Part shown: piece by piece, positions 15,907-55,155 of the stretch
How the letters are laid out: each line of letters begins with the position of its first letter
Numbering within the stretch: position 1 is the first letter of the stretch
Assembly: GCF_004339745.1 (NCBI RefSeq)
Contig: NZ_SMGP01000001.1
Coordinates: forward strand, 1,798,001-1,862,000
Length of the DNA: 64,000 nucleotides
From: Paraburkholderia sp. BL9I2N2
GTDB lineage: Bacteria; Pseudomonadota; Gammaproteobacteria; Burkholderiales; Burkholderiaceae
Reading direction: 5' to 3'
Program-made: the position numbers and the translations under genes
Notes under the pieces: generated by a model
Databases searched by the model: none
Seen by the model: the letters and a program-made list of their open reading frames with translations, nothing else
What the model was told of the DNA's origin: nothing

Positions 15907-16482
15907 CTACTTCAGCACACCAGTGCGCCTGGCGATATGCGTGGACATCGCGTCCATCAACGGCGGGTTGAGCGCGTCGTACGGTGGGAGTCCGAGCTCA
16001 GTGAGCCGTGCGCGCACATCGTCCATCTGTTCCGGTTTCGCGCCGCCAGCTTCGATTACCGACGAGACGAAGGCCGCAAAGCGCGGCTCTTCCCAGCCGC
16101 TTTCATCGGAGAGTTCGACGTGAATGAAGTCGAGACCGTAGAACGGATGGTCACGGTTTTCTATCCGGCCATACATGTGCGCTCCGCACGCCTTGCAGGC
16201 ATGACGTTGGATGGCCGCTTTCTCGTCGACGATCTGGAGCTTCTCGGCATGAGCGGTGACCGTGACCTTGTCGCGCGGCACCACGCCTATCATTGCGAAA
16301 GCTGCGCCAGCCGGTTTCCAGCATTTCGTACAGCCGCAAATGTGGTTGTGCGCGACGTTACTCTCTACCCGGACTTCGACTTTGTCGCTCGGGCATTGGC
16401 AGTGGAGCGTGCCGCCGGTGAAGCCGGGGGTGCCCTTCTTGACGCCGGCGTCCACTGACGGGTGTATTGTCAAGGTACTCAT
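15907..16482 (-). CDS. gfa: S-(hydroxymethyl)glutathione synthase (glutathione-dependent formaldehyde-activating enzyme)
   Basis: A 191-residue GFA-family protein. Zinc-binding cysteines lie in GGTLHCQC (near residue 28), [13 protein letters not shown] (near 49-56) and [26 protein letters not shown] (in two parts, near 95-115), the pattern of the Paracoccus Gfa family. It accelerates condensation of formaldehyde with glutathione, feeding the adjacent dehydrogenase. A strong GGAGGTGA ribosome site precedes the ATG. It lies 73 bp downstream of the formaldehyde dehydrogenase gene in the same direction, so they likely form one transcript. Neighbouring Rieske demethylase would be a formaldehyde source. 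Confidence 0.92.
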
Positions 16483-16555: not shown

Positions 16556-17719
<1,164 letters not shown>

Positions 17720-17851: not shown

Positions 17852-17894
17852 TTTAGAAAAACTAAGCCTCGGCTGTAGTTCAAATCGTTTGATG
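17852..17894 (+). promoter_or_regulatory. Shared 43-bp promoter element, copy 1 (LysR-type box)
   Basis: Contains TTAG-AAAAA-CTAA (17853-17865), a T-N11-A LysR-type dyad, and about 18 bp further AAATCGTTTG (17882-17891). The same layout, without gaps, is on the minus strand at 22732-22690 upstream of the lyase gene: the first 13 bases are identical and AAAT(C/G)GTTTG is conserved at the same spacing. The element ends 66 bp before the Rieske oxygenase start. Likely target of the GcvA-like LysR protein at 22771-23700. Confidence 0.65.
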
Positions 17895-17960
17895 ATCTGC
17901 TGCTGTTGTTCCTATTCTTTGCCCACTGGACGATTGATTGAACACGAAAGGGGGCAGGGA

Positions 17961-18998
17961 ATGTATTTGCGGAACGCGTGGTATGTCGCTGCCTGGAGCG
18001 ACGAGATCGAAGACAAGCCGGTGAGACGAATCATTCTGGAGGAGCCGGTCGTACTCTATCGCGGTTTGGAGCATGCGGTGATCGCGCTTGAAGATGCGTG
18101 CCCGCATCGCAAGCTGCCTCTTTCGATGGGCGAGGTGACGGGCGACAACCTGCGCTGTGGTTATCACGGACTGGAGTTCAGTCCCGACGGCGTTTGCGTG
18201 CATGCGCCAGGTCTTGCCAGGATTCCACCGAAGGCTTGCGTGAGACGCTATCCGGTAGCCGAACGCTACGGATTGGTCTGGATCTGGACGGGCAACCCCG
18301 AGTTGGCTGATCCGGACGAAATACTGACCGTTGCGCACTACGACGATCCGGCGTGGGGCGTCAATCTCGGTCCTGCGATGGACGTGAACTGCGGCTATCA
18401 GTACATGACGGATAACCTGCTCGATCCGTCTCACGTCACGTATGTCCACAAGACTTCGCTGGGTAACTTCGCCACCGCGGATGTACCGGTCAGGATGACG
18501 GTCCTCGACAACGGCGTGCTCGCCTCGCGGTGGATGCTGGATTGCGAACTCGCGCCGTTCTTCCGCCCGTATGTGAGCTTCGCCGGACATGCCGACCGGC
18601 TGCAGCATTATGAAGTGCGCTATCCGTCGCACGCGATTATTCGCGACATCATTGCACCGGCGAATTCAGGTGCGCCGCAGGGGCGGTTGCATCCGGACGT
18701 GTTCCTGCTCGACTCATATAACTTCGTTACGCCGGTGACCGAGCATAGCTGTCGCTACTTCTGGTTTCAGGTGCGCAACTTCCGGCCTGATTGCGCAGCG
18801 ACAGACCGCGCGCTCACCGACGATTTCATCAGCGCATTCAATGAGGATCTGGTCGTGCTGTCCGCGGTCGATGACGGCATGACGAACAAGCGAACGCCTA
18901 ATACGGACATTGAAACCGACGCTGCGCCGCTGCGTTTTCGCCGCATGCTGCAAAAGATGATCGAAGCCGAGCGTGCGCCACAACAGGTCGTTTCGTGA
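17961..18998 (+). CDS. Rieske non-heme iron oxygenase, vanillate O-demethylase oxygenase-like (VanA family)
   Basis: A 345-residue oxygenase starting MYLRNAWYVAAWSDEI, the characteristic VanA-family N-terminus; this ATG has a GGGGCAGGGA ribosome region. Rieske ligands are Cys47, His49, Cys66 and His69 (CPHR ... RCGYH). The mononuclear iron site includes His158 and His163 with bridging Asp155 in DNLLDPSHVTYVH. Partner reductase follows with a 4-bp overlap. Family members demethylate vanillate and other methoxy or N-methyl compounds, releasing formaldehyde, which fits the divergent frmA-gfa genes. The shared promoter with the lyase at 20999-22573 suggests a substrate other than plain vanillate, so I avoid the vanA symbol. 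Confidence 0.88.
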   Translation: MYLRNAWYVAAWSDEIEDKPVRRIILEEPVVLYRGLEHAVIALEDACPHRKLPLSMGEVTGDNLRCGYHGLEFSPDGVCVHAPGLARIPPKACVRRYPVAERYGLVWIWTGNPELADPDEILTVAHYDDPAWGVNLGPAMDVNCGYQYMTDNLLDPSHVTYVHKTSLGNFATADVPVRMTVLDNGVLASRWMLDCELAPFFRPYVSFAGHADRLQHYEVRYPSHAIIRDIIAPANSGAPQGRLHPDVFLLDSYNFVTPVTEHSCRYFWFQVRNFRPDCAATDRALTDDFISAFNEDLVVLSAVDDGMTNKRTPNTDIETDAAPLRFRRMLQKMIEAERAPQQVVS

Positions 18999-19018
18999 CT
19001 TCCCTGGAGATTACTGCG

Positions 19019-19993
19019 ATGAGCGCCGGTACAGATACGATTGAAGTGCGCATCATTGACGTCAGCGCGGCGGCTGACGACATCCGTGTATTCCGGCTTG
19101 CCCGTACAGACGGTGCGGCGTTGCCGGCGTACGCGCCCGGCTCGCATATCGACGTTCATCTTCCGAGTGGACGGGTGCGCCAGTACTCGCTGTGCGGCGC
19201 AGACGCCAGCGCACCGGAGTACCGCATCGCCGTCAAACGCGAACCCGCGTCCCGCGGCGGATCCGCATGGCTGCATAGCGCCGCGCAGGTCGGCACGCGC
19301 ATGCGGATCGGGACGCCGCGCAACGCGTTTGCCTTGAGCGATACGGCAGATCAGCACCTTTTGATTGCCGGCGGAATCGGCGTCACGCCGATTCTCTCGA
19401 TGGCCTACGCGCTCGCGGCATCGCAAAAGCGGTACACGCTCGCCTATTTTGCTCGCAGCGACGCGTCTGTCGTATTCCGTACGGAGTTCGGACGATTACC
19501 TCTTGCGGACCACGCGCATATCCACGTCGGCCTCTCGCCAGCCGCGACTCGCGAGTGTATTGCCGGTCTGCTGTCTGCCGCGTTGCCCAACACGCATCTC
19601 TATGTTTGCGGACCGCTCGCCTTCATGGAGATGACGGTACGCCTTGCCCGCGACATGCTGGGCGAACCGTTCGTGCATCAGGAGTCGTTCGGCCCTGCGG
19701 TGCCGGTTGCCGGCGACGAACGCGAGTTTTCGGTACGGCTCGAAGGCAGGAGCGACGCAATACCCGTCCCGCCAGGCAAGACCGTGCTGGCGTCTCTGCG
19801 CGAGGCGGGATTCGACCTGCCATCGTCGTGCGAAGTGGGCGTGTGCGGGACTTGCATGATGCGCGTTCTCGCGGGCGAGCCCGACCATCGCGACACCTAT
19901 CTGACCGATGACGAACGCGCGGCCGGGACGTGCTTCCTGCCGTGCGTATCGAGGTCGAATTCATCCGTGTTGGTGCTTGACGAGTTGGCGTGA
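19019..19993 (+). CDS. VanB-like ferredoxin/flavin reductase component
   Basis: A 324-residue phthalate-dioxygenase-reductase-type protein: flavin-binding domain (about 1-100, RQYSLCG), NAD-binding domain (GGIGVTPILSMAYAL near 115) and a C-terminal plant-type [2Fe-2S] ferredoxin domain (SSCEVGVCGTCMMRVLAGEPDHRD and a final Cys in FLPCVS). It transfers electrons from NAD(P)H to the Rieske oxygenase. I prefer the ATG at 19019, which has GGAGA about 8 bases upstream; a GTG at 18995 overlapping the oxygenase stop would add 8 residues. The binding-protein gene follows after 46 bp, likely in the same operon. Confidence 0.92.
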   Translation: MSAGTDTIEVRIIDVSAAADDIRVFRLARTDGAALPAYAPGSHIDVHLPSGRVRQYSLCGADASAPEYRIAVKREPASRGGSAWLHSAAQVGTRMRIGTPRNAFALSDTADQHLLIAGGIGVTPILSMAYALAASQKRYTLAYFARSDASVVFRTEFGRLPLADHAHIHVGLSPAATRECIAGLLSAALPNTHLYVCGPLAFMEMTVRLARDMLGEPFVHQESFGPAVPVAGDEREFSVRLEGRSDAIPVPPGKTVLASLREAGFDLPSSCEVGVCGTCMMRVLAGEPDHRDTYLTDDERAAGTCFLPCVSRSNSSVLVLDELA

Positions 19994-20039
19994 GCGGCAC
20001 GGGTATTTGCATTCAAATCCATAGGCAGGGAGACTTCAA

Positions 20040-20900
20040 ATGAACCTCAGTCGTCGGGACGTTGTAAAGGCAGTGGCTTGCGCGGCGTCCGTCATGGCCG
20101 TCGCGTTTTCTTCAACCAGCTACGCGAAGGAGTGGAAGACCGTCACCATTGCCCTCGAGGGCAGCTATGAACCGTGGAATCTGACACGTCCGGACGGCAC
20201 GCTGGATGGGTTCGAACCGGAGCTTGCGAAAAATCTCTGCACGCGTATGCGCGTCCAGTGCAAACTGATCGCGCAAGACTGGGACGGGTTGATTCCCGGG
20301 TTGAACTCCGGCAAATTCGACGTGATCATGGATGCCCTGTCGATCAGTGACGAGCGTAAGAAGGCGATCACCTTTTCAAAGCCATATGCAAATACGCCAG
20401 CCGCTTTTGTCTCGGTCGGGTCGGGCGTGCTGCCGAAGCTGCCGCCAGGCGCCGTACCCATCAAGCTGACCGGCAATCCGGCAGTCGACAGGCCGGCCGT
20501 CGACCTGCTGCGCGTCAGCTTGAAGGGCAAATCGATCGGGATCGTCACGGGGACGGTCTACAGCAAATTCATCAACGAGAACTTCAAGGATATTGCGAGC
20601 ATTCGCGAATACAAGAACGCTCCGGAACACGACATCGATCTGATCGCGGGACGTATCGACGTGGCGTTCGACGACGCATCCTACTATGCGTCCGCCTTGT
20701 CGAAACCCGCCAACGCGACGTTGGGATTCACCGGTCCGAAGATCGGCGGTCCAATCTGGGGGGACGGTGAAGCGCTCGGTTTGCGCAAAGCCGACACGGA
20801 CCTGAAAGCCATGTTCGACCAGGCAATTGCCGCGGCGCTTGCTGACGGGACGGTGCACACGCTCAGTCAGAAGTGGTTCAAAACGGACGTCACGCCCTGA
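20040..20900 (+). CDS. Periplasmic amino-acid-type solute-binding protein (family 3)
   Basis: A 286-residue exported protein with a signal peptide (about 1-29, ending SSTSYA) and the SBP_bac_3 fold: VTIALEGSYEPWNLTRPDG, DGFEPELAKNLC, QDWDGLIPGLNSGKFDVIMDALSISDERKK. It most resembles lysine/arginine/ornithine or opine-binding proteins. It follows the VanB-like gene by 46 bp and ends just before a strong terminator hairpin, so it appears to be the last gene of the Rieske operon. No permease or ATPase gene is adjacent; it must use a transporter encoded elsewhere or act as a receptor. The ligand class points to an amino-acid-like substrate for the whole cluster. Confidence 0.9.
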   Translation: MNLSRRDVVKAVACAASVMAVAFSSTSYAKEWKTVTIALEGSYEPWNLTRPDGTLDGFEPELAKNLCTRMRVQCKLIAQDWDGLIPGLNSGKFDVIMDALSISDERKKAITFSKPYANTPAAFVSVGSGVLPKLPPGAVPIKLTGNPAVDRPAVDLLRVSLKGKSIGIVTGTVYSKFINENFKDIASIREYKNAPEHDIDLIAGRIDVAFDDASYYASALSKPANATLGFTGPKIGGPIWGDGEALGLRKADTDLKAMFDQAIAAALADGTVHTLSQKWFKTDVTP

Positions 20901-20944
20901 AGCTGAATTTATGGTCGAGACGCAGTTTGGCTTGACTGGTTTTT

Positions 20945-20981
20945 AACGAGCCGTCGATATCCCTGGAATCGACGGCTCGTT
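20945..20981 (+). terminator. Intrinsic terminator, perfect 14-bp stem
   Basis: Left arm AACGAGCCGTCGAT (20945-20958), 9-nt loop, right arm ATCGACGGCTCGTT (20968-20981), followed by T-rich TTTG on plus. It lies 45 bp after the binding-protein stop and 18 bp before the convergent lyase stop, so it probably ends the Rieske operon and may serve both directions. Confidence 0.8.
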
Positions 20982-20998
20982 TGCCATCAGTGGAGCAG

Positions 20999-22573
20999 TT
21001 ATTCGTGCAGCGCGCCGGTGATGTTCTCGACGACGCTCAGCAGATCGCCCTGCGTGACCAGTTCGTGAATGTGCACCATGTCCGGGTGGAAGAAGCGATC
21101 GCCCTCCACCTTGGGCACCTTCTGCCTGATCCGGGCGTAGACCGCTGCCGTGGCAGGCGAGGCGTCTGCCGGGTCGAAGAAATCCAGAGCCTGGGTCGCC
21201 ACCATCAGTTCGATCGCGAGCACATGCTGGAGTTTCTGCGACGTCTCGTAAGCCTTGCGCGCGGCAAGATACGCAAAGCTCACGGGGTCTTCCTGATTGC
21301 CGCTCGTCGAGACGCTATCCACGCTCGCAGGATGAGACAGGATACGCATTTCTCCGAGCAGGCCCGCGGCGGTGTACTGAACGATCATGTAGCCGCTATT
21401 CAGACCGGGGCGCGGCGCGAGGAACGCCGGCAGTTCGCTGAAGTGCGGGTTCACCAGCCGGTCGGTCCGGCGTTCGGAGATTTTGGCGAGATTGGTCATC
21501 GCGATGCAGAGGAGGTCGCTCGCGATGCCAACGAACGTGCCATCGAAATTCGCGCCTGAAATGGCGAGGCCGTCGCCCTCGTGGGGATAGATGACGGGGT
21601 TGTCGCCGCAAGAACCGACCTCGTCGAGAATGGCCTCGCGCGCATCATTGATGGCTCGCTTCGAGGCGCCATGGACTTGCGCCATGGCTCGCAGACTGTA
21701 GGTATCCTGCAAGCGGTAATCGACAAAGCGTTCGGTCAATGCGCTGCCGGCGAGAATTCGTCGCAGATTGTCGGCCGCGTTGGACTGGTCCCGGTGTTTC
21801 TTGACCGAGTGATAGCGCGCGTCGAGCGAGCGTGTTGTGCCCTTGAGCGGCTGCAGGGACATGGCAGCGGCAATGTCGGCGACCTTGGACGCTTCCAGCG
21901 CGTTATGCAGCGCGAGCATGCCGATTGCGGTCACCGAGGTCGTGCCGTTGACCAGCGCGAGCCCCTCCTTGCAACGCAGGGTATGAGGTTTCAGGCCGGC
22001 TTTGTGCAGCGCTTCCAGACCGCTCATCCGTTCATCGCCATAAGTCGCCTCGCCTTCGCCGATCAGCACGAGGGCCATGTGCGCTTCGGGTCCGAGGTAG
22101 CCGACCGAGCCGTCACCAGGCGCTACCGGCGTGATGCCGTGATTGAGCAATTCCGCAATCTGCAGCAGTAAGTCGAGCGTGACACCGGAATAGCCTTTTC
22201 CAAGGCTGTTCAGGATCATGAGCTGAGTCGCGCGGACAACCTCGCGCGGCAGCGGGGCGCCCACCGAGACCGCGTGCGAGCGCACGATATTGCGTTGCAG
22301 ATCTTCGGCCTCTTCCGGCCGGATCACGCGGGTGGAGTTGTCGCCGAATCCGGTGGTGACGCCGTAGACGAGGCGATTTTCCTCGAGAAACCGTTCGACC
22401 AGCATGCGCGAGCGCGACACGCGCTCGCAATATTTCTGCGAGAAGCGGACCTTCGCGCCATGCTTTGCGACCGCGATAAATTCCTCGATCGATATGTCGT
22501 CATCGCCGAGCAGCACTTCGCTAATGTGCTTTGGACGAGCCCGCAGGCTATCGTGCCCTGTGTTCATGTTCAT
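20999..22573 (-). CDS. HAL/PAL-superfamily lyase lacking the MIO-forming Ala-Ser-Gly triad
   Basis: A 524-residue protein matching histidine/aromatic ammonia-lyases along its length: VYGVTTGFGDNS near 70, NIVRSHAVSVGAPLPREVVRA, EGLALVNGTTSVTAIG, ISGANFDGTFVGIA, AKISERRTDRL, GLNSGYMIVQYTAAGL and SGNQEDPVS. At the cofactor site, however, HAL has GSVGASGDLAPLAHMAL, whereas this protein has GSVGYLGPEAHMAL (residues 155-168): Ala-Ser-Gly is Tyr-Leu-Gly and three residues are missing. MIO therefore cannot form, so hutH is the wrong name. Ergothionase, which expels trimethylamine from ergothioneine, is a HAL relative described from Burkholderia and of similar size; I consider an ergothionase-like trimethylamine lyase the best hypothesis. 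Promoter shared with the Rieske operon. Confidence 0.85.
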   Translation of the reverse strand: MNMNTGHDSLRARPKHISEVLLGDDDISIEEFIAVAKHGAKVRFSQKYCERVSRSRMLVERFLEENRLVYGVTTGFGDNSTRVIRPEEAEDLQRNIVRSHAVSVGAPLPREVVRATQLMILNSLGKGYSGVTLDLLLQIAELLNHGITPVAPGDGSVGYLGPEAHMALVLIGEGEATYGDERMSGLEALHKAGLKPHTLRCKEGLALVNGTTSVTAIGMLALHNALEASKVADIAAAMSLQPLKGTTRSLDARYHSVKKHRDQSNAADNLRRILAGSALTERFVDYRLQDTYSLRAMAQVHGASKRAINDAREAILDEVGSCGDNPVIYPHEGDGLAISGANFDGTFVGIASDLLCIAMTNLAKISERRTDRLVNPHFSELPAFLAPRPGLNSGYMIVQYTAAGLLGEMRILSHPASVDSVSTSGNQEDPVSFAYLAARKAYETSQKLQHVLAIELMVATQALDFFDPADASPATAAVYARIRQKVPKVEGDRFFHPDMVHIHELVTQGDLLSVVENITGALHE

Positions 22574-22689
22574 GCGTGATCCCTATGATTTGGCCGGTTA
22601 GCTGAAACCATGCGGCAGGCACGCAGCGGCAAACAGCGATGGCTGATGCGCATGGATTCGCTTTCGAGCATAGGGTGGCGCATAGACGC

Positions 22690-22732
22690 CGACAAACCAT
22701 TTAATCTGCGGAGCCTCTATAGTTTTTCTAAA
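22690..22732 (-). promoter_or_regulatory. Shared 43-bp promoter element, copy 2 (LysR-type box)
   Basis: On the minus strand it begins TTTAGAAAAACTA, identical to the copy at 17852, and has AAATGGTTTG at the same spacing (22701-22692). The core TTAG-N5-CTAT is a near-perfect dyad. It lies 116 bp upstream of the lyase start and about 40 bp beyond the stop of the LysR gene, inside the 197-bp gap. Confidence 0.65.
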
Positions 22733-22770: not shown

Positions 22771-23700
22771 TCAACCAAATATCGCGTTGATGTCGCGTTG
22801 CGTCTGCGCGGCTTCCTCGGTCAGCCAGTCGAGGAATTGCCGTGCGTCCGGCGCCTCGAGCGCGCCGGGTTGCCACACCAGGTAGTACGGATACGGCATG
22901 GGCAGCGAGATCCTGAAGGGTGCGATCAGCAGTCCCTGCGTCAGGCTATCGGCAGTGAAAAGTCCCTGACCGAGCGACACGCCTCTGCCGCGCAGCGTCG
23001 CATCGACGGCCATGCCCGAAAGCGAGTAGGTCAACGGAGCCAGTGTGTCTGGCACGGGGACGCCGGCTGCGCGCAACCAGTCGCCCCAGGTCGGCGGCGA
23101 CCTCTCGTTCCAGCCCCACTCGACATGGACAAGCGGGTAGTGCAGCAAATCCGCGGGCTGCTCGATCGGCTGGTCCGCCCGCAGCAGTGACGGCGAGCAC
23201 ACCGGTGTCACCCGGTCGGTGAATAGCAGACGGTAGTGGGCTCCGTCCGCGGGCGGCGTTCCGTACGTCATGCGGACATCCCAATTGCTTTCGCCGCGCT
23301 TCGGCTCGCGATCCGTGGCCTCCACGTGGACGCGCACGCCGGGTGATAGCGTGTGCCACTTATCCAGCCGCGACGCAAACCAATGCGTTGCAACCGAAGG
23401 GAACGTACTGAGTGTCAGGTGAGGACCATGCTGCGCCGCTTCCAGGGCCGTGTGCGCGGCATGAAAGCATTCGAAGCCGCGGGCCACGTGCTCGTGGTAG
23501 AGCTGGCCGAGCGCGGTGGGGCGCAGGCCGGTGCTTTCGCGGTCGAACAGCGCGACGCCGAGGAATTCTTCGAGCTGGCGGATCTGTTGACTGACTGCTC
23601 CGGGCGTCACGTGCAGTGATTCGGCGGCGGCGACGACATTCTTGTTGCGAACCACGGCATCGAATGCCTGGAGGGCGCGCAGCGGCGGCAAACGGTTCAT
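22771..23700 (-). CDS. LysR-family regulator, GcvA-like
   Basis: A 309-residue protein starting MNRLPPLRALQAFDAVVRNKN at 23700, the typical GcvA-subfamily N-terminus (a 32-residue upstream extension is discarded). Helix-turn-helix at about 20-45 (VVAAAESLHVTPGAVSQQIRQLEEFLG, in part) and the GcvA-type effector domain with DWDVRMTYG-like and WLTEEA motifs. It sits immediately upstream of the MIO-less lyase gene in the same direction. GcvA-type proteins bind dyads with a T-N11-A core, and such a dyad occurs upstream of both the lyase and the Rieske oxygenase, so it is the likely activator of both. Confidence 0.9.
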   Translation of the reverse strand: MNRLPPLRALQAFDAVVRNKNVVAAAESLHVTPGAVSQQIRQLEEFLGVALFDRESTGLRPTALGQLYHEHVARGFECFHAAHTALEAAQHGPHLTLSTFPSVATHWFASRLDKWHTLSPGVRVHVEATDREPKRGESNWDVRMTYGTPPADGAHYRLLFTDRVTPVCSPSLLRADQPIEQPADLLHYPLVHVEWGWNERSPPTWGDWLRAAGVPVPDTLAPLTYSLSGMAVDATLRGRGVSLGQGLFTADSLTQGLLIAPFRISLPMPYPYYLVWQPGALEAPDARQFLDWLTEEAAQTQRDINAIFG

Positions 23701-26490: not shown

Positions 26491-28254
26491 TCACAAATCA
26501 ATGACGACGTCACCAGCCGGCTGGGAACAGCAGACCAGCACGTTCCCTTGCGCGGGCATGTCGAGCGGCTCGGGACTATAGTTCACCGTCCCCGAAACCA
26601 GTCCGCTTTCACAGTTGTGACAAACACCGGTTCGACACGACCATCGAACCGGCACGTCACACGCTTCGGCCAACTCCAGAATGTTCGGATACAGCGCCGC
26701 ATTCCAGTGCGCCGCGACGCCGCTGCGGGCAAATGAAACCAGCGGCCCGGTGTCGGCATCCTCGGTCGGCTGGTGCGGCGCGCGCGCCGAAGTGCCGACG
26801 ATGCCCGGTGTCAAAGTCTCACCGCCGCTAAAGATTTCAGCGTGAATCCGCTCCGGCGCGACGCTCAGCGCGGCGAGCACCATTTTCATGTCCGCCATGA
26901 AGCGCGTCGGGCCGCAGAGGTAGAAATCCGCGCCTTGCGGCACGCCTGCCTCGTCGAGCGCCGTCCGCGAGAGGTGGCCGAGCGCATCGAAATTCTCGCC
27001 GATGCGCTCGCTCGCATCCGGCCGGCTGTAGCAGACATAGCTGCGCCCGTGCGTCAGTTTGTGCACCAGAGCGCGGGCTTCGTCCGCGAACGCATGGTGT
27101 TGCCGGTCGCGAGCGCCGTGAAGCCACCACACCTGCCGCGTCGAGCCCGCCGCGGCCAGCGCATGCAGCATGGCAAGAACCGGCGTCACGCCGATTCCCG
27201 CGCTGAGAAGAACAAGCGGACCGTCGCCGGGCTGCAGAACAAAGCTGCCGCGCGGCGCGCTGACATCGAGTGCATCGCCTGCACGGACGTGCGCTTGCAG
27301 GTAGGTTCCCGCTGCCCCATGCGGCTCGACCTTGACGCTGATCCGATAGCGCTCGGTCGATGCTTCGCCCGAAAGCGAGTAGCTGCGAAAGAGTGGCGGG
27401 CCGCCGGCGGGCCGTGGCAGACGCAACACCACGTACTGACCGGGCAGCGCCGTTTGCAGCGGTTGACCGTTCGCGCTTTGCAACGTCAGCGAGAGCACAT
27501 CGGCGCACGCCGGTTCAATCGCCGTCACCGTAAGTGGCCGAAATCCGGGGGCAACCGGATGCGCGGCAGCGGCGGGCGCAAGGCCTGCATTCCCGCTCGC
27601 TGCACCCCTTGTCTGGTCGCGCAACAACGCCTCGAACGACCCACGCCAGCCGGGCGACAGTGCCTCGATGCGCAAGGCCTGCTCCAGCCGATCGCGCGGA
27701 TGATGAGGGGAATACAGGAGCGCATTGATCTCGGTGACGCTCATGCGCTCTGTTGCCTCGCCGACTTTCACGATGTCGTCGCCGGCGCCGACGGCACCCT
27801 CCTGCAGGACGCGCAAATAGAAACCCGGCCGTCCGCTGGATGTCAGCAACGCAGGCATGCGGGGCTCGTTCGTCCGAATGCCGACGCGATAGCAGGTCAC
27901 GCGAGGTTGCGTCACTTCGAACAAGGCCGTGCCGATCCGATAGCGGTCGCCGATGCATACGTCGGAGTCCGGCATGCCTTCGATCGTGAAGTTCTCGCCG
28001 AACTGTCCGTAGACGAAGTCGCTCCGCTTCAGTTGCGCCTGCCAATGGCGATAGGACTCGATCTGGTAGACGAACACGGCTCGCTGCTCGCCGCCGTGCC
28101 CAGCCAGATCACCCTGACCATCGCCGGTCAGATTCAGGCGGCCGGCCCAACAACGCGCGTGCGCCGGCTCCTTCCAGATTCCCGTGTGGACCGTGCGGCC
28201 TTTCCAGTCAATGTCGCGCGGTAGTCCGACATTCACCGAGAGCAATCGAGCCAT
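26491..28254 (-). CDS. MOSC domain fused to a flavin/[2Fe-2S] reductase
   Basis: A 587-residue fusion. Residues ~1-225 are a YiiM-like MOSC domain (DVCIGDRYRIG, VTQPRVTCYRVG with a conserved Cys). Residues ~240-470 are a ferredoxin-NADP-reductase-like FAD/NAD module (FRSYSLSG, LSAGIGVTPVLAMLHALAA, CGPTRFMADM). Residues ~500-587 are a [2Fe-2S] domain (WSCRTGVCHNCESGLVSG and a final VLVCCSQP). YiiM reduces N-hydroxylated bases such as 6-hydroxylaminopurine with a molybdenum centre and needs external electron donors; this fusion would supply them in one chain. Cytoplasmic; single gene. Function is inferred from domains. Confidence 0.88.
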   Translation of the reverse strand: MARLLSVNVGLPRDIDWKGRTVHTGIWKEPAHARCWAGRLNLTGDGQGDLAGHGGEQRAVFVYQIESYRHWQAQLKRSDFVYGQFGENFTIEGMPDSDVCIGDRYRIGTALFEVTQPRVTCYRVGIRTNEPRMPALLTSSGRPGFYLRVLQEGAVGAGDDIVKVGEATERMSVTEINALLYSPHHPRDRLEQALRIEALSPGWRGSFEALLRDQTRGAASGNAGLAPAAAAHPVAPGFRPLTVTAIEPACADVLSLTLQSANGQPLQTALPGQYVVLRLPRPAGGPPLFRSYSLSGEASTERYRISVKVEPHGAAGTYLQAHVRAGDALDVSAPRGSFVLQPGDGPLVLLSAGIGVTPVLAMLHALAAAGSTRQVWWLHGARDRQHHAFADEARALVHKLTHGRSYVCYSRPDASERIGENFDALGHLSRTALDEAGVPQGADFYLCGPTRFMADMKMVLAALSVAPERIHAEIFSGGETLTPGIVGTSARAPHQPTEDADTGPLVSFARSGVAAHWNAALYPNILELAEACDVPVRWSCRTGVCHNCESGLVSGTVNYSPEPLDMPAQGNVLVCCSQPAGDVVIDL

Positions 28255-28333: not shown

Positions 28334-29872
28334 TCAATGTGCACTGTCCTGTCTGGCATACGTTGACTCCCACCCGCCGCCGAGCACCTTGCACAACGTG
28401 ATGAGGTTCGCGTCGGCGTCGGCCTTGCTTTGTTCGAGGTTGCTCTGCGCATCGAGCAACTGTTTCTGCACGTTCAGCACGTCGAGAAAATCGACCGCAC
28501 CGGCCTTGTACCGTTGCCGCGCAATCGATAGCGCACGCTGGTTCAGGCTCACGACCGTTTTCAGGCGATCACGCCGCCGCTGTTCCGCGTCATAGACGAC
28601 GAGCGCATCGTCCACCTCGCGCCATGCCTGAAGCACGGTGTGCTTGTAGACAATCGCCGCCTCCTGCTGCTGTGCCTCGCGCAGATGAAGCGTGCCCTTG
28701 AGGCGTCCGCCTTGGAAGATAGGCAGCGTGATCGACGGTCCCACGACAAACTGCCCGGACGCCCAGTCGGCGAGATTCGAGAGCTGCAGGCTCTGGAACC
28801 CGGCGCTGCCGTTCAGCGAGATGCGTGGATAGAAGTCGGCCTTCGCCATGCCGATCGTCGCGGTGGCCGCGTGCAGCTGAGCCTCCGCTTTCCTGATGTC
28901 GGGTCTGCGCTGCACCAGTTCCGACGGCACGCCAATGGGCACCTGATCAGGCAGTGCCGGCACATCGTGCGGCTCGGCGAGCATCTGTCTTAATGCGCCA
29001 GGTTCCTTCGCCAGTAGCACGCCAATCGCATTGATGGTGGTCTCGTTGCGCGATTCGAGCGTCGGGATCAGGCTTTCGATCGACTCCGCCTGGGCCATCG
29101 CGTTGGCTACATCCAGCTCCGTGGTGACGCCTTCATGCACCCGCGTTTGCGTGAGCTTCGTGGCGTCGTGTGCGATCGCCAGGTTCTGTTTCGCGATTTG
29201 CAGCAACGCTTGCGTGTCGCGCAACTGGATGTAGTCGCGGGCGAGTTCGGCGCGGGCGGACAACAGGATCGCGTTGCGGTCCTCGTACGACGCATCGGCG
29301 AGCGCCGAAGCGGCCTCGACACCGCGTCGGGCGCGACCCCAGAAATCGAGCTCCCATGATGCATCGAAGCCGAACTGGTAGAGATCGTAAGCGGGCGAGC
29401 CTTTGGCGCCCGGCAACGGCGCCACGCCTAGCGGCGCGCTGCCCGATGCCGACTGCGGCTGACTTCCCGTCGGGGTGACGCCAAGCAGCGACAGGATGCC
29501 GTTCGGACTTCCGCGCTCGCGGTTATAGGAGGCGGCGCCGGCCAGCGTCGGATATTCTTCGGCACCGGCAATGCGCTGTTCCGCCCGGCTTTGCCGCAGG
29601 CGCGCCGACGCGGCCGCGACATCGAGATTCGCATCGCTCAGCTGGTTCTCCAGCGAGTCCAGCACGGGATCGTTGAAGAGCGTCCACCATTGCGGACTGA
29701 ATTCGGATTCGACCGCTTTGCTCGAAGCCTGCGCGGTCTGGGTGCGGTTGAACACGTCGGGCGTGGCCGTCTGCGGACGTTCGAAGTTCGGGCCGACCAG
29801 GCAGCCCGTGAGCAGGGAGCTCAGCAACAGCGCGAGCGCCGGTGTGCGGAGGGAGGAGTCGCTCGCATTCAT
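28334..29872 (-). CDS. NodT-family outer-membrane efflux lipoprotein (TolC superfamily)
   Basis: A 512-residue outer-membrane factor. The N-terminus is a lipoprotein signal with lipobox LLTGC (Cys about residue 24), followed by LVGPNFERP, the standard start of mature NodT/OprM proteins. Two outer-membrane-efflux repeats follow, with RPDIRKAEAQLHAATA and IGVPSELVQRRPD motifs. Its start overlaps the stop of the adaptor gene by 4 bp (29869-29872), so it is the third gene of an EmrB-EmrA-OMF operon and forms the exit duct of the pump. Confidence 0.93.
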   Translation of the reverse strand: MNASDSSLRTPALALLLSSLLTGCLVGPNFERPQTATPDVFNRTQTAQASSKAVESEFSPQWWTLFNDPVLDSLENQLSDANLDVAAASARLRQSRAEQRIAGAEEYPTLAGAASYNRERGSPNGILSLLGVTPTGSQPQSASGSAPLGVAPLPGAKGSPAYDLYQFGFDASWELDFWGRARRGVEAASALADASYEDRNAILLSARAELARDYIQLRDTQALLQIAKQNLAIAHDATKLTQTRVHEGVTTELDVANAMAQAESIESLIPTLESRNETTINAIGVLLAKEPGALRQMLAEPHDVPALPDQVPIGVPSELVQRRPDIRKAEAQLHAATATIGMAKADFYPRISLNGSAGFQSLQLSNLADWASGQFVVGPSITLPIFQGGRLKGTLHLREAQQQEAAIVYKHTVLQAWREVDDALVVYDAEQRRRDRLKTVVSLNQRALSIARQRYKAGAVDFLDVLNVQKQLLDAQSNLEQSKADADANLITLCKVLGGGWESTYARQDSAH

Positions 29873-30960
29873 TTCGCGTCCGCTCCCGCGATGCGCATAT
29901 CGGCACGCTTGCCGACGGCGACCTCCGTTTCGACGGACAGGCCCACGCTCAAAGCGGACGCGGCCTGTTGTCCGTGGTCGATCGTGATCTTGACCGGCAC
30001 GCGCTGGACGACCTTCGTGAAGTTGCCCGTTGCGTTATCGGGCGCAATAGGCGCGAAGCTCACACCCGTGGCGGGGGCAAGACTATCGACGTGTCCCCGG
30101 ATCACTTCGCCCGGAAAACTGTCGACCTTGATCCGAACAGCGTCGCCGGGCCGCATCCGGGCGAGCTGGTTTTCCTGGAAGTTGGCGACGATATAGGCGT
30201 CCGACAGCGGCACGATCGCGAGCAGCGGCGCGCCGGTCGTCACGAATGCGCCGACCCGTGCCGAACGCCGTCCAACCTTGCCGTCGACGGGCGCGCGGAT
30301 CTCCGTATACGACAGGTTGAGCTTCGCCTGTTCGAGCGCGGCTTCGGCGTGCGCCAGCGCGCCGGCCGCCTTGTCGCGCTGGGTCTTCAGCACGTCGAGG
30401 TTCTGCTCGGTCGCCACGAGTGCGGCCCGGTTGCGAGCCTGCTGCGCGAGTTCCTCGGCCAGCGCGCTCGCGGCGTGCTGCTGCTCCTGCGTCGTGCCCG
30501 CGCCGGTTTCCGACAGATTGCGGTAGCGCGAGGCGTTCGCACGCGCAAACTCGAGCGTCGCGTCATCCGCGCGAAGCGTGGCACGCGCCTGATCGACGAG
30601 CGCGGGCTGCCGCGCAATCTCGGCCTCGTAGTTCGCGACCGATGCCTTCGCTGCCGCCACGTCCGCCTGCGCGCTCATCAACGCGGCGCGGAAGTCGCGG
30701 TCGTCGATGCGTACCAGCAGTTGCCCGGCTTTCACCTGCTGGTTGTCTTCGACGAGCACCTCGGAAAGCTGGCCCGCGACACGCGGCGCGACCAGCGTGA
30801 AATCGGCCGTCACATAGGCGTCATTGGTGGTCTCGCTGGTCGAGCCGGTGAATAGCCAAAGGCAGGCCGCCAGTACAGCGACGCCGAGTATGAGCACATA
30901 CGCGGCAAGACGGATCGTTCTGGGAGGAAATCGGGTAGCGGATGACATAGATAGCGGCAC
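29869..30960 (-). CDS. HlyD/EmrA-family periplasmic adaptor
   Basis: A 363-residue membrane-fusion protein: one N-terminal transmembrane helix (about 18-40, LAAYVLILGVAVLAACLWLF), then VAPRVAGQLSEVLVEDNQQVKAGQLLVRID, an alpha-helical hairpin (about 95-210) and the second half-lipoyl IRAPVDGKVGRRSARVGAFV. It bridges the MFS pump to the outer-membrane factor. Stop of the pump gene and its start are adjacent (30961/30960). Substrates unknown; the family exports hydrophobic drugs, uncouplers and phenolics. Confidence 0.92.
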   Translation of the reverse strand: MPLSMSSATRFPPRTIRLAAYVLILGVAVLAACLWLFTGSTSETTNDAYVTADFTLVAPRVAGQLSEVLVEDNQQVKAGQLLVRIDDRDFRAALMSAQADVAAAKASVANYEAEIARQPALVDQARATLRADDATLEFARANASRYRNLSETGAGTTQEQQHAASALAEELAQQARNRAALVATEQNLDVLKTQRDKAAGALAHAEAALEQAKLNLSYTEIRAPVDGKVGRRSARVGAFVTTGAPLLAIVPLSDAYIVANFQENQLARMRPGDAVRIKVDSFPGEVIRGHVDSLAPATGVSFAPIAPDNATGNFTKVVQRVPVKITIDHGQQAASALSVGLSVETEVAVGKRADMRIAGADAK

Positions 30961-32586
30961 TTAGCGGGAAGAGGGCGGCGTTGTGCTCCAGGGCGGATAA
31001 ACGCGCACGGGTAACACCGGAATAACGAAAAGGAAGGCGACGGCGATACCCGCCATCACGCGATAGAGATCCGCCGATGTCAGCACGACGGCCTGCTCGT
31101 GAATCCGGTGCGCGAGTTCGCCGATGCTGTGAGCCGCATCGATGCTCTGGCTCGTGACCAGCGCGTTGTTGCCCAGGTGGTCCACCAGCATGCTCGAATG
31201 GAAATGCTCGCGTGCCGTACCGAGCCCATCGATGAGACCGGTTGCCGCTGCGCCGGTAAATGTTTTGAGTGTGTTGAACATGGCCGAGGCAAACGGACCT
31301 TCCGTTGGGGGCAGGCCGGTCGTGACGCCCATCAGGATGCCCATGATCACCATGGGCTGAGCAACGATCTCCAGCGACTGAAGCCAGTAAAAGTTCTCGC
31401 GAATCCACTCGGAGGTCATGAAGCTCCCCAGAAAGCACGTGGTGGCGATCAGGCAAAGTCCAATGGCCATGACCCAGCGGTGGTCGACCTGCCGGAGATT
31501 GAGCAGCGCGGCGGTCGCGGGCAGCGCAATCAGTAGCGGAATGGCGACGAGCAACGACAGCGGCGCGGTTTGCAGCGGCCGGTAGCCGTGAATCTGCGCG
31601 AGATACTGGCCGGGTATGGCGGCGACGCCCACCAGCAGGATCACTGCGCCGACCAGTGTGAGAAGCCCGTGCGCGAAGTTCCGGCGGGCAAGCAGTTGCA
31701 GTTTGAAAAACGGCAGCGGATGAAACCACTCGTTGACAAGGAATGCCACGAACAACAGCGTCCCGCCGCAAAACATCGTGGAGATAAACGTCGAATTCAG
31801 CCAGTCAAGCCGATCGCCCTGCAGCAGGCCGATGACGAGCATGGCGATGGCGGGATAGCCGAGCAGGAATCCGGTCCAGTTGAATGAACGGAACCGTTCG
31901 AGTCTGGTTGGATCGGCTGGAAGCCCCTTGTAGATCGCCACGCAGCTCACGAGGCCAAGCGGCACGATTTGCCAGAAGGCCATTTGCCAGCCGACATATT
32001 CGGTCCACAACGCGGCGAGCGGCGTGCCGAGCGCCGGTCCGAAGGTCGCGGTGAGTGCGTAGCCCGCGAGTCCATATAACTTGACCCTCGGGGGCAGGTA
32101 ACGCAGCGCGACGATGATCAGCATCGGCGGCAGACATCCGCCTGCGACGCCCTGCAGCGCACGCAACACATAGAGCGCCAGCAGGTTCGGCGCGAAGGGA
32201 CACAGAAATCCAAGCAACATCACGGCCAGCACCGCGCCGATCGTGAATCGCTTCAGCGTGAAAGTCACGCCGAACCACGGCGCGAATACCATCGTGGCCA
32301 CGTTCGTCGCCTCGAAGAGCGCGGTCAGCCAGGTTCCATCGTCTCGTCCGATCGAGAACGCGCCGCGGATATCAGCGAGCGCCACCGCGGTGACCTGTTC
32401 GTTCAGTATGGCCAGCAGCGACGCCAGCAGCATTCCGATCAGGCCGATAGCGAGGCGCAAGGGCAACTCGGCTTCGGTGGGCGCCCGCTGCACAGGAGTC
32501 CCTGTCTGGGGCACAGAGACCGGCGTCGACGATGGCGCGAGCTTCGCATCTCCTGTTCCAGTTATCGATGGGTTGGCGGTGTTCAT
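30961..32586 (-). CDS. DHA2-family MFS drug exporter (EmrB-like)
   Basis: A 541-residue MFS protein with about 14 transmembrane helices after a ~45-residue cytoplasmic leader. Motifs: LNEQVTAVALADIRGAF in helix 1, DGTWLTALFEATNVATM, RALQGVAGGCLPPMLI (motif C-like region). First gene of the efflux operon. Its promoter region (32678-32856) is a diverged duplicate of the one in front of the ABM-like gene at 33005-33679, suggesting common control by the LysR protein at 34162. Confidence 0.93.
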   Translation of the reverse strand: MNTANPSITGTGDAKLAPSSTPVSVPQTGTPVQRAPTEAELPLRLAIGLIGMLLASLLAILNEQVTAVALADIRGAFSIGRDDGTWLTALFEATNVATMVFAPWFGVTFTLKRFTIGAVLAVMLLGFLCPFAPNLLALYVLRALQGVAGGCLPPMLIIVALRYLPPRVKLYGLAGYALTATFGPALGTPLAALWTEYVGWQMAFWQIVPLGLVSCVAIYKGLPADPTRLERFRSFNWTGFLLGYPAIAMLVIGLLQGDRLDWLNSTFISTMFCGGTLLFVAFLVNEWFHPLPFFKLQLLARRNFAHGLLTLVGAVILLVGVAAIPGQYLAQIHGYRPLQTAPLSLLVAIPLLIALPATAALLNLRQVDHRWVMAIGLCLIATTCFLGSFMTSEWIRENFYWLQSLEIVAQPMVIMGILMGVTTGLPPTEGPFASAMFNTLKTFTGAAATGLIDGLGTAREHFHSSMLVDHLGNNALVTSQSIDAAHSIGELAHRIHEQAVVLTSADLYRVMAGIAVAFLFVIPVLPVRVYPPWSTTPPSSR

Positions 32587-54222: not shown

Positions 54223-55155
54223 CTACTGCGGCAGCGAGAGACCATATTGATCGTGCTGCTCGATAAGCTTTGTAAACAGTGCTTTGATCGCCAGCTCCAC
54301 AATGCGGATGCCGTGTGTGACCGGGCGATGAACCGCGGTCGCGAGCACGAGCCGCGTGTGCAATTGCGGCCTCGCGAGCGCCCGCGCGTGCAGCGTGGCC
54401 GCAGCCAGTTCGCCGAGCACGGCGGGTTTCGCGAGTACCGTGCAGCCGAGGCCGGCGACCACCATTTCCTTGAGCAGTTCGAGCGTGTCGACTTCGTACT
54501 GCACGTCGAGCGTCACGCCTTCCTTGCCGGCCGCGTATTCGAGCGTGCGGCGCAGACCGTGGTTGCGCGTCGGCAAAACCAGCGGTATTTGCGCAACGCC
54601 CGCGAGCGTCGTCTCGTCAGGTATCGCGAAGTTCGTGGCGGCGGCCGGCGTGACGAGGAACAACTCCGCGGCCGCCAAAGGATCGACCGCGACGGTGGAC
54701 GAACGGCGGGCGTCGTGCAGAATCGCCATGTCGAGGCGGCCGTCGATCAGCCACTCGTGCACATAGCCGCTATAGCCCGATACCACGTTCACCTGCAGAT
54801 TGGGATGTGTCTCGCGCAAACCGGCGATCAAGCGCATGCCGATCAGATTGCACACGGTCGGCGTCAAGCCGACGGTAACGAGTCCATGCGGCGAGTCGCG
54901 TTCCGACTGGAGATCCGCTGGAATCGCAGCCAACTGGCGCACGAGCGGACTCGCGCGTTCGATCAGTGCGAGGCCTTCCGGCGTCAGCGAAATGCCGCGG
55001 CCGTGGCGGTAGAGTAGACGCAGGCCGCATTCCTCTTCGAGCTTCTGGATCTGCCGGCCCAACGCAGGTTGCGCGATGCCCAGCACAGTGGCGGCTTTCG
55101 AAAAACTGCCGAATGCGGACACCTGCATCAGCAATTCGAGTCGTCTCAGATCCAT
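54223..55155 (-). CDS. LysR-family transcriptional regulator
   Basis: A 310-residue regulator starting MDLRRLELLMQVSAFGSFSKAATVLGIAQPALGRQI (in part) at 55155; a 62-residue upstream extension is rejected. HTH in 1-60, effector domain to the end. It is divergent from the dehydrogenase-like gene at 55323 with 167 bp between, and a perfect 17-bp palindrome lies 23 bp from its own start, so autoregulation plus control of the divergent gene is likely. Probably the main regulator of the island; the second LysR at 61126 is a competitor. Confidence 0.92.
   Translation of the reverse strand: MDLRRLELLMQVSAFGSFSKAATVLGIAQPALGRQIQKLEEECGLRLLYRHGRGISLTPEGLALIERASPLVRQLAAIPADLQSERDSPHGLVTVGLTPTVCNLIGMRLIAGLRETHPNLQVNVVSGYSGYVHEWLIDGRLDMAILHDARRSSTVAVDPLAAAELFLVTPAAATNFAIPDETTLAGVAQIPLVLPTRNHGLRRTLEYAAGKEGVTLDVQYEVDTLELLKEMVVAGLGCTVLAKPAVLGELAAATLHARALARPQLHTRLVLATAVHRPVTHGIRIVELAIKALFTKLIEQHDQYGLSLPQ

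Follow-up and report, generated by a model that had tools for sequence, protein, structure and literature searches.

We analysed a window of 64,000 nucleotides from Paraburkholderia sp. BL9I2N2 (contig NZ_SMGP01000001.1, positions 1,798,001 to 1,862,000 of the forward strand). A 43-bp element occurs twice in this window: once upstream of vanA, which codes for a VanA-like Rieske oxygenase, and once upstream of a gene for a lyase with the histidine ammonia-lyase (HAL) fold, devoid of the residue triad forming the 4-methylideneimidazole-5-one (MIO) group. An earlier reading of the sequence, referred to here as the original prediction, had tied the two genes together through this element; the observation is confirmed, and its interpretation is supported in part. 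The overall reading of the cluster, to which we give about an even chance, is a small catabolic regulon made of a LysR-controlled Rieske demethylase operon and a MIO-free betaine lyase. A narrower proposal is put forward tentatively, our confidence in it falling somewhat short of even: a further MIO-free lineage of the HAL fold, mis-named histidine ammonia-lyase, would consist of trimethylamine lyases for hercynine and would form, with Rieske N-demethylases, an undescribed hercynine-type betaine regulon. Each single part of the cluster belongs to a type already described. What seems to be new is the element, a lineage of MIO-free lyases distinct from ergothionase, and the recurrent association of this lyase with a Rieske demethylase. 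Among the matches listed by a literature search, which left most subscription journals uncovered, no title or beginning of an abstract dealt with this cluster.

The structure of the two elements was first considered. Element 1 covers 17852..17894 (plus strand), 66 bp before vanA, and element 2 covers 22690..22732 (minus strand), 116 bp before the lyase start, positions and distances which agree with the original prediction. Box and element were searched across genomes, and the promoter hexamers of both copies were read by eye, with no prediction tool. Element 1 is composed of a LysR-type T-N11-A box (TTTAG-N5-CTAA, 17852-17864), a 17-bp gap and AAATCGTTTG (17882-17891), the end of which overlaps a -35-like hexamer TTGATG (17889-17894); a -10-like TATTCT follows at 17913-17918. 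Element 2 contains an identical box (22732-22720) and AAATGGTTTG (22702-22693), whose end overlaps a -35-like TTGTCG (22695-22690), with a -10-like TATGCT (22672-22667) after a 17-bp spacer. In both copies AAAT(C/G)GTTTG lies 17 bp downstream of the box, and the -10-like hexamer 17-18 bp beyond the -35-like hexamer. The window thus presents the arrangement of a LysR-type regulon, with a T-N11-A dyad before each target and one target adjoining the regulator gene.

A scan of the window identified the 13-mer TTTAGAAAAACTA exactly at 17852-17864 (+) and 22732-22720 (-), and tolerance of up to two mismatches added one site, at 55096 (0.07 expected). The two 43-bp elements are identical at 28 of 43 positions in ungapped alignment, and only 9 of 2,000,000 random pairs of 43-mers from the window reached at least 27 matches, which bears out the earlier view that the match is unlikely to be chance. 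The exact 13-mer is present twice in the whole 9.97-Mb genome, both times in this cluster, for about 0.02 expected from base composition. When one mismatch is allowed the genome contains 6 sites (2 exact) versus 8 for the reversed control, so that loose sites correspond to background: one (G000:C3) is near a short-chain dehydrogenase/reductase gene with no visible link to the cluster, and the three remaining loose sites were compared with the cluster's own genes only.

The specificity of the element was analysed in 144 Paraburkholderia genomes with the pattern TTTAG-N5-CTA-N17-AAATNGTTTG, at most one mismatch being allowed. This pattern was derived from the two elements of the window and from loci seen earlier, so its recall is partly obtained by construction, but its specificity is not. 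We observed 22 sites in 18 genomes, and one with the reversed control. They are distributed as follows: 18 are upstream of a lyase relative, 3 are upstream of vanA (the window, G1077 and G364), and one, in G1148, has one mismatch and no cluster gene matching there. The original prediction depended on the element not being widespread upstream of unrelated genes, and 21 of the 22 sites precede the lyase or vanA. The lyase itself (E 1e-150) has 18 copies in 17 genomes, and every copy is preceded by the element, which is very probably a genuine part of the lyase promoter. Box mismatches were also counted in 33 upstream stretches: 20 have none, 6 have one, 6 have two and one has three. Five of the six stretches with two mismatches belong to vanA, and for three of these the scan chose a place differing from the one seen earlier; the sixth comes from genome G013, where an exact box is present outside the searched stretch.

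The two enzymes are linked across genomes. The vanA ortholog (E 1e-150) is found in 8 of the 144 genomes, and in all 8 a lyase of the window's type (type A) lies about 2 kb away, facing vanA. In a 398-genome family sample, type-A lyases (at least 82 %) and vanA orthologs (at least 78 %) are present in the same 6 genomes; 21 further vanA-like places, at 54-59 %, form a separate branch, VanA2. In the family containing Pseudomonas (298 genomes) the lyase was found in 6 genomes. Five of these, together with a Pseudomonas locus (L006), have a LysR gene divergent from a single operon, ordered vanA, vanB, solute-binding protein, two ATP-binding cassette (ABC) genes, ATPase and lyase. The lyase is directly followed by frmA in three pseudomonad operons (L147, L151, L153), and a glyoxalase-family gene stands at the end of all except L152. 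Each of the six pseudomonad loci has the box before vanA with at most one mismatch, the far half AAATNGTTTG not being seen at these box sites; four other loci (L007, L008, L009, L155) carry an exact box before the lyase. In an identity matrix including L147, L152 and L154 (L006 and the other pseudomonad loci being outside it), the VanAs of these three share 55-67 % identity with VanA2 proteins from other contexts and 52-53 % with VanA1 of the window. All pseudomonad VanAs nest within VanA2 in a FastTree tree (no support values printed), which suggests that two VanA branches were probably joined to the same lyase, i.e. that the pairing arose twice.

The neighbourhood of the pair varies: in the window, L001 and G1077, frmA and gfa lie on the far side of the element and point away from vanA, and an ABC transporter takes this place in L002, L003, L004, L011, L098 and L097. 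Formaldehyde genes are found with the pair in the window, in its closest relatives and in three pseudomonads, as expected from the formaldehyde disposal proposed alongside demethylation. Locus L097 (658-17998, genome G362) has, beside the VanA1-lyase module, a VanA2 module that includes DUF2817 and a LysR gene of its own; ABC genes, S-formylglutathione hydrolase and frmA follow. In L006 (16384-21159) a second MIO-free lyase stands between a GbcA-like Rieske oxygenase and a VanB-like reductase, the vanA-lyase operon being 4 kb away. This arrangement recalls the glycine-betaine monooxygenase GbcA/GbcB; the GbcA-like protein is below cut-off (581 versus 670 bits), and the window has none such.

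The lyase (20999..22573, minus strand) passes the NCBIfam hutH equivalog model TIGR01225 (546.9 for a cut-off of 539.15). Its AlphaFold2 model (24-row alignment, mean predicted local distance difference test 89.6) has Pseudomonas putida HAL as best fold match (template modelling score 0.89), with ergothionase at rank 13. In the alignment to HALs exactly three columns are missing (GSVGY---LGPEAH), those of the Ala-Ser-Gly triad of MIO; the enzyme was predicted to be unable to use MIO, and its identification as a plain HutH is rejected on the same ground. The eight pocket residues outside the triad are kept (Y53, H83, N195, Q277, Y280, R283, F329 and E414 in P. putida numbering), and a second difference from HutH concerns His330, replaced by Asp. 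Among the best 120 of 7,998 matches to this MIO-free query, the triad is systematically absent and F329-D330 systematically present, and H83, R283 and E414 are constant. In MIO-bearing rows of the compared loci, residue 330 is His in 61 of 62 cases and Tyr in one (near-copies included). The Treponema denticola ergothionase (6s7j) and its 120 relatives listed have lost the triad differently, mostly with -EG or -EA remaining, and 119 of 120 ergothionase-family proteins listed have an acid at 330. The tree keeps three groups apart: the clade of the window comprises 22 rows and has support 100/99, three other MIO-free rows form a second clade (100/100), and two ergothionase-like rows group together on long branches (83/73). 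MIO loss in these lineages may have one common origin. Judging by the names of the matches, members of the window's clade come from Pseudomonadota, Bacillota, Actinomycetota and Myxococcota. We infer that this clade is a further lineage of amino-acid-betaine lyases.

Several other MIO-free lyases were observed in passing. The BL9I2N2 genome has a second one (L131:6064-12080, G000:C4; GSVGY---LSHMAH), 38 % identical to that of the window, in a unit of solute-binding protein, ABC, lyase and HutC genes, where the HutC repressor is above the TIGR02018 cut-off; the true hut locus (L132) is elsewhere in the genome. A Sciscionella lyase with another triad remnant (T-G) immediately precedes a MIO-free clade-A lyase (L010:8266-11530). 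Two lyases of the ergothionase lineage have neighbours of their own, one adjoining hutI-hutH-hutG-hutU in Paracoccus saliphilus (L195:2537-9590), the other near a gene annotated as dimethylsulfoniopropionate lyase on pSymA of Sinorhizobium meliloti (L196:7866-12849).

The remaining genes of the cluster have the identities given by the original prediction. By domain search, vanA (17961..18998, plus) codes for Rieske (PF00355) and VanA_C (PF19112) domains and overlaps by 4 bp the gene of a VanB-like reductase (18995..19993, plus; FAD, NAD, 2Fe-2S), so the pair has the composition of a VanA-type Rieske demethylase with its partner. VanA matches DdmC and NdmA, the nearest solved relative by sequence being the dicamba O-demethylase DdmC. 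Its subfamily shares the two domains with O- and N-demethylases of the VanA/DdmC/NdmA type and differs from them in occurring with histidine-type genes and a MIO-free lyase. The operon continues with a family-3 solute-binding protein (20040..20900, plus), which among proteins of solved structure is closest in sequence to octopine- and nopaline-binding proteins (210 bits, versus 116 for the histidine-binding protein). On the minus strand, a GcvA-like LysR gene (22771..23700, start MNRLPPLRALQ, longest open frame from 23796) adjoins the lyase, as in 7 type-A loci compared. Its product, which scores 236.8 bits with the GcvA-like model (cut-off 288), is the presumed activator of both promoters. 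A GcvA-like regulator and a T-N11-A box near the -35 region are common to this cluster and to GcvA-type LysR regulons, whereas the target genes differ. Divergent from vanA across the element are frmA (16556..17674, minus), coding for S-(hydroxymethyl)glutathione dehydrogenase (729.5 bits, cut-off 543.95), and beside it gfa (15907..16482, minus), coding for a glutathione-dependent formaldehyde-activating enzyme (TIGR02820, 316.5 bits, cut-off 234.55).

These elements can be assembled into a putative pathway. The GcvA-like LysR would switch on the vanA/vanB operon and the lyase through the shared T-N11-A element, and the opine-type binding protein with its ABC transporter would import an Nalpha-substituted amino acid. 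The MIO-free lyase would expel trimethylamine from a histidine-like amino-acid betaine, giving a urocanate-like acrylate; such an expulsion would be possible without MIO because a quaternary nitrogen should be a good enough leaving group. VanA/VanB would strip an N-methyl group, on a ring nitrogen or on the alpha nitrogen, as formaldehyde, either before or after the lyase step, and this formaldehyde would be disposed of by FrmA and Gfa. A role of VanA in demethylating the released trimethylamine was judged unlikely, VanA relatives being present in 17 of 398 genomes without the lyase.

The nature of the substrate was considered from the pocket and from the neighbourhoods of VanA2 genes, examined in 11 of 99 records. 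These 11 records contain an aminotransferase in 9 cases (named HisC in 5), an FAD oxidase in 9, a DUF2817/aspartoacylase-like gene in 7, Hut genes in 4 and frmA in 3; a MIO-bearing HutH is nearby in one. The kept HAL pocket, together with the Hut and aminotransferase neighbours of these related VanAs, would favour a histidine-type compound. Ligands of octopine- and nopaline-binding proteins are N-substituted amino acids, and the opine-type binding protein would favour an N-substituted compound. The BL9I2N2 genome has hutH, hutU, hutC and hutF above cut-off, and the position of its second MIO-free lyase, next to ABC genes and HutC, speaks for a histidine-type betaine, as does the GbcA-like oxygenase adjoining the second such lyase of L006. 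Histidine betaines are made by fungi and actinobacteria. Our best guess for the substrate is a hercynine-like Nalpha-substituted amino acid. Demethylation of vanillate or of another plain aromatic compound is not favoured as the role of the cluster: related VanAs are often found in the company just described, and the VanA ortholog of the window was never found without the lyase in the 144 genomes.

Among other explanations, the lyase could be an ergothionase and the cluster could degrade ergothioneine itself, which we consider unlikely. Ergothionase, according to a published account (PMC13405746), splits ergothioneine into trimethylamine and thiourocanic acid without MIO, and the same account reports it from a Burkholderia. 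The lyase of the window resembles the T. denticola enzyme in its HAL fold without triad, in the acid at 330, and in Tyr53, His83, Gln277, Arg283, Phe329 and Glu414. However, the two share 30 % identity and are separate in the tree. Ergothionase has a one-residue triad loss (-EG/-EA), F-E at 329-330, Leu280 and Ser195, whereas the lyase of the window has a three-residue deletion, F-D, Tyr280 and Asn195, and a protein of the ergothionase-like lineage is present in Burkholderia arboris (L194). We took the presence of a thiourocanate hydratase in the genome as a further mark of ergothioneine breakdown; it was found above the NF058530 cut-off in none of the 15 genomes with the lyase-VanA pair, which makes ergothioneine less likely as the substrate. 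We hold equally unlikely that the substrate is a ring-N-methylated histidine, from which VanA would yield histidine and formaldehyde, the lyase serving a side branch or using a related by-product. The aminotransferase, FAD oxidase, DUF2817/aspartoacylase-like and Hut neighbours of related VanAs, with the HutH of one record, are consistent with it, but the MIO-free lyase in the same operon is left unexplained, because elimination from a free amine should require MIO.

Hypaphorine (tryptophan betaine) or some other aromatic amino-acid betaine appears improbable as the substrate. VanA-type enzymes accept many aromatic substrates, and a urocanase-type hydratase (E 1e-100) is absent from 3 of the 15 pair genomes (G213, G1083 and G1103); against this, Glu414 and His83, which hold the imidazole in HAL, are kept throughout the best 120 of 7,998 homologues. 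Two neighbouring unrelated pathways having a generic GcvA-type LysR box in common would be very improbable. A similar box does precede the VanA2 gene with its own LysR in L097, and lyase and VanA are each found elsewhere without the other, but the pseudomonads have both in one operon with a VanA of the other branch, and the vanA ortholog always comes with the lyase in the 144 genomes.

Several observations weigh against the proposed betaine regulon, and some concern the element. Of the 8 vanA copies in Paraburkholderia, 5 have at least two mismatches (e.g. TTTAGAAAAATTGAG) and just 3 have at most one. Since all 18 lyase copies have the element, we conclude that it belongs primarily to the lyase and that the claim is weaker for the copy before vanA; the original idea of one element linking both genes is nevertheless supported. 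Boxes with one mismatch are equalled in 3-8 % of cases when the upstream stretch of each is shuffled, and the stretch with three mismatches is a Mycobacterium locus (L013) where the lyase is present without the box. The predicted co-occurrence of the two loci is supported, with exceptions: of the 18 Paraburkholderia lyase copies, 10 lack an adjoining vanA ortholog, no vanA was found in the examined stretches around the lyases of L007, L008, L009 and L155, and VanA2 occurs alone in the 17 genomes of the 398 mentioned above, none of which has the lyase. Concerning the lyase, N195 and Y280 vary among its best 120 homologues, and the uniformity of this set is partly due to selection by a MIO-free query. 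The trimethylamine step is predicted by analogy with ergothionase, i.e. with another lineage at 30 % identity. The lack of thiourocanate hydratase also counts here, and the three genomes without a urocanase-type hydratase are awkward for urocanate as product.

Two further regions of the window were noted by eye. An open frame at 26491-28254 (minus) resembles a fusion of a MOSC-type N-terminal part with a VanB-like reductase, and the region 28334-32586 (minus) resembles a three-part efflux system composed of an outer-membrane factor, a HlyD-like adaptor and a major facilitator superfamily pump.

With its element, its LysR gene and its small operon, the cluster lends itself to a direct test of the claim. 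If it is true, a clade that a curated model allows to be named histidine ammonia-lyase performs a different reaction without the textbook cofactor, and many genome annotations would need correcting. Soil bacteria would then possess a pathway devoted to histidine betaines, and one more bacterial source of trimethylamine would be known.

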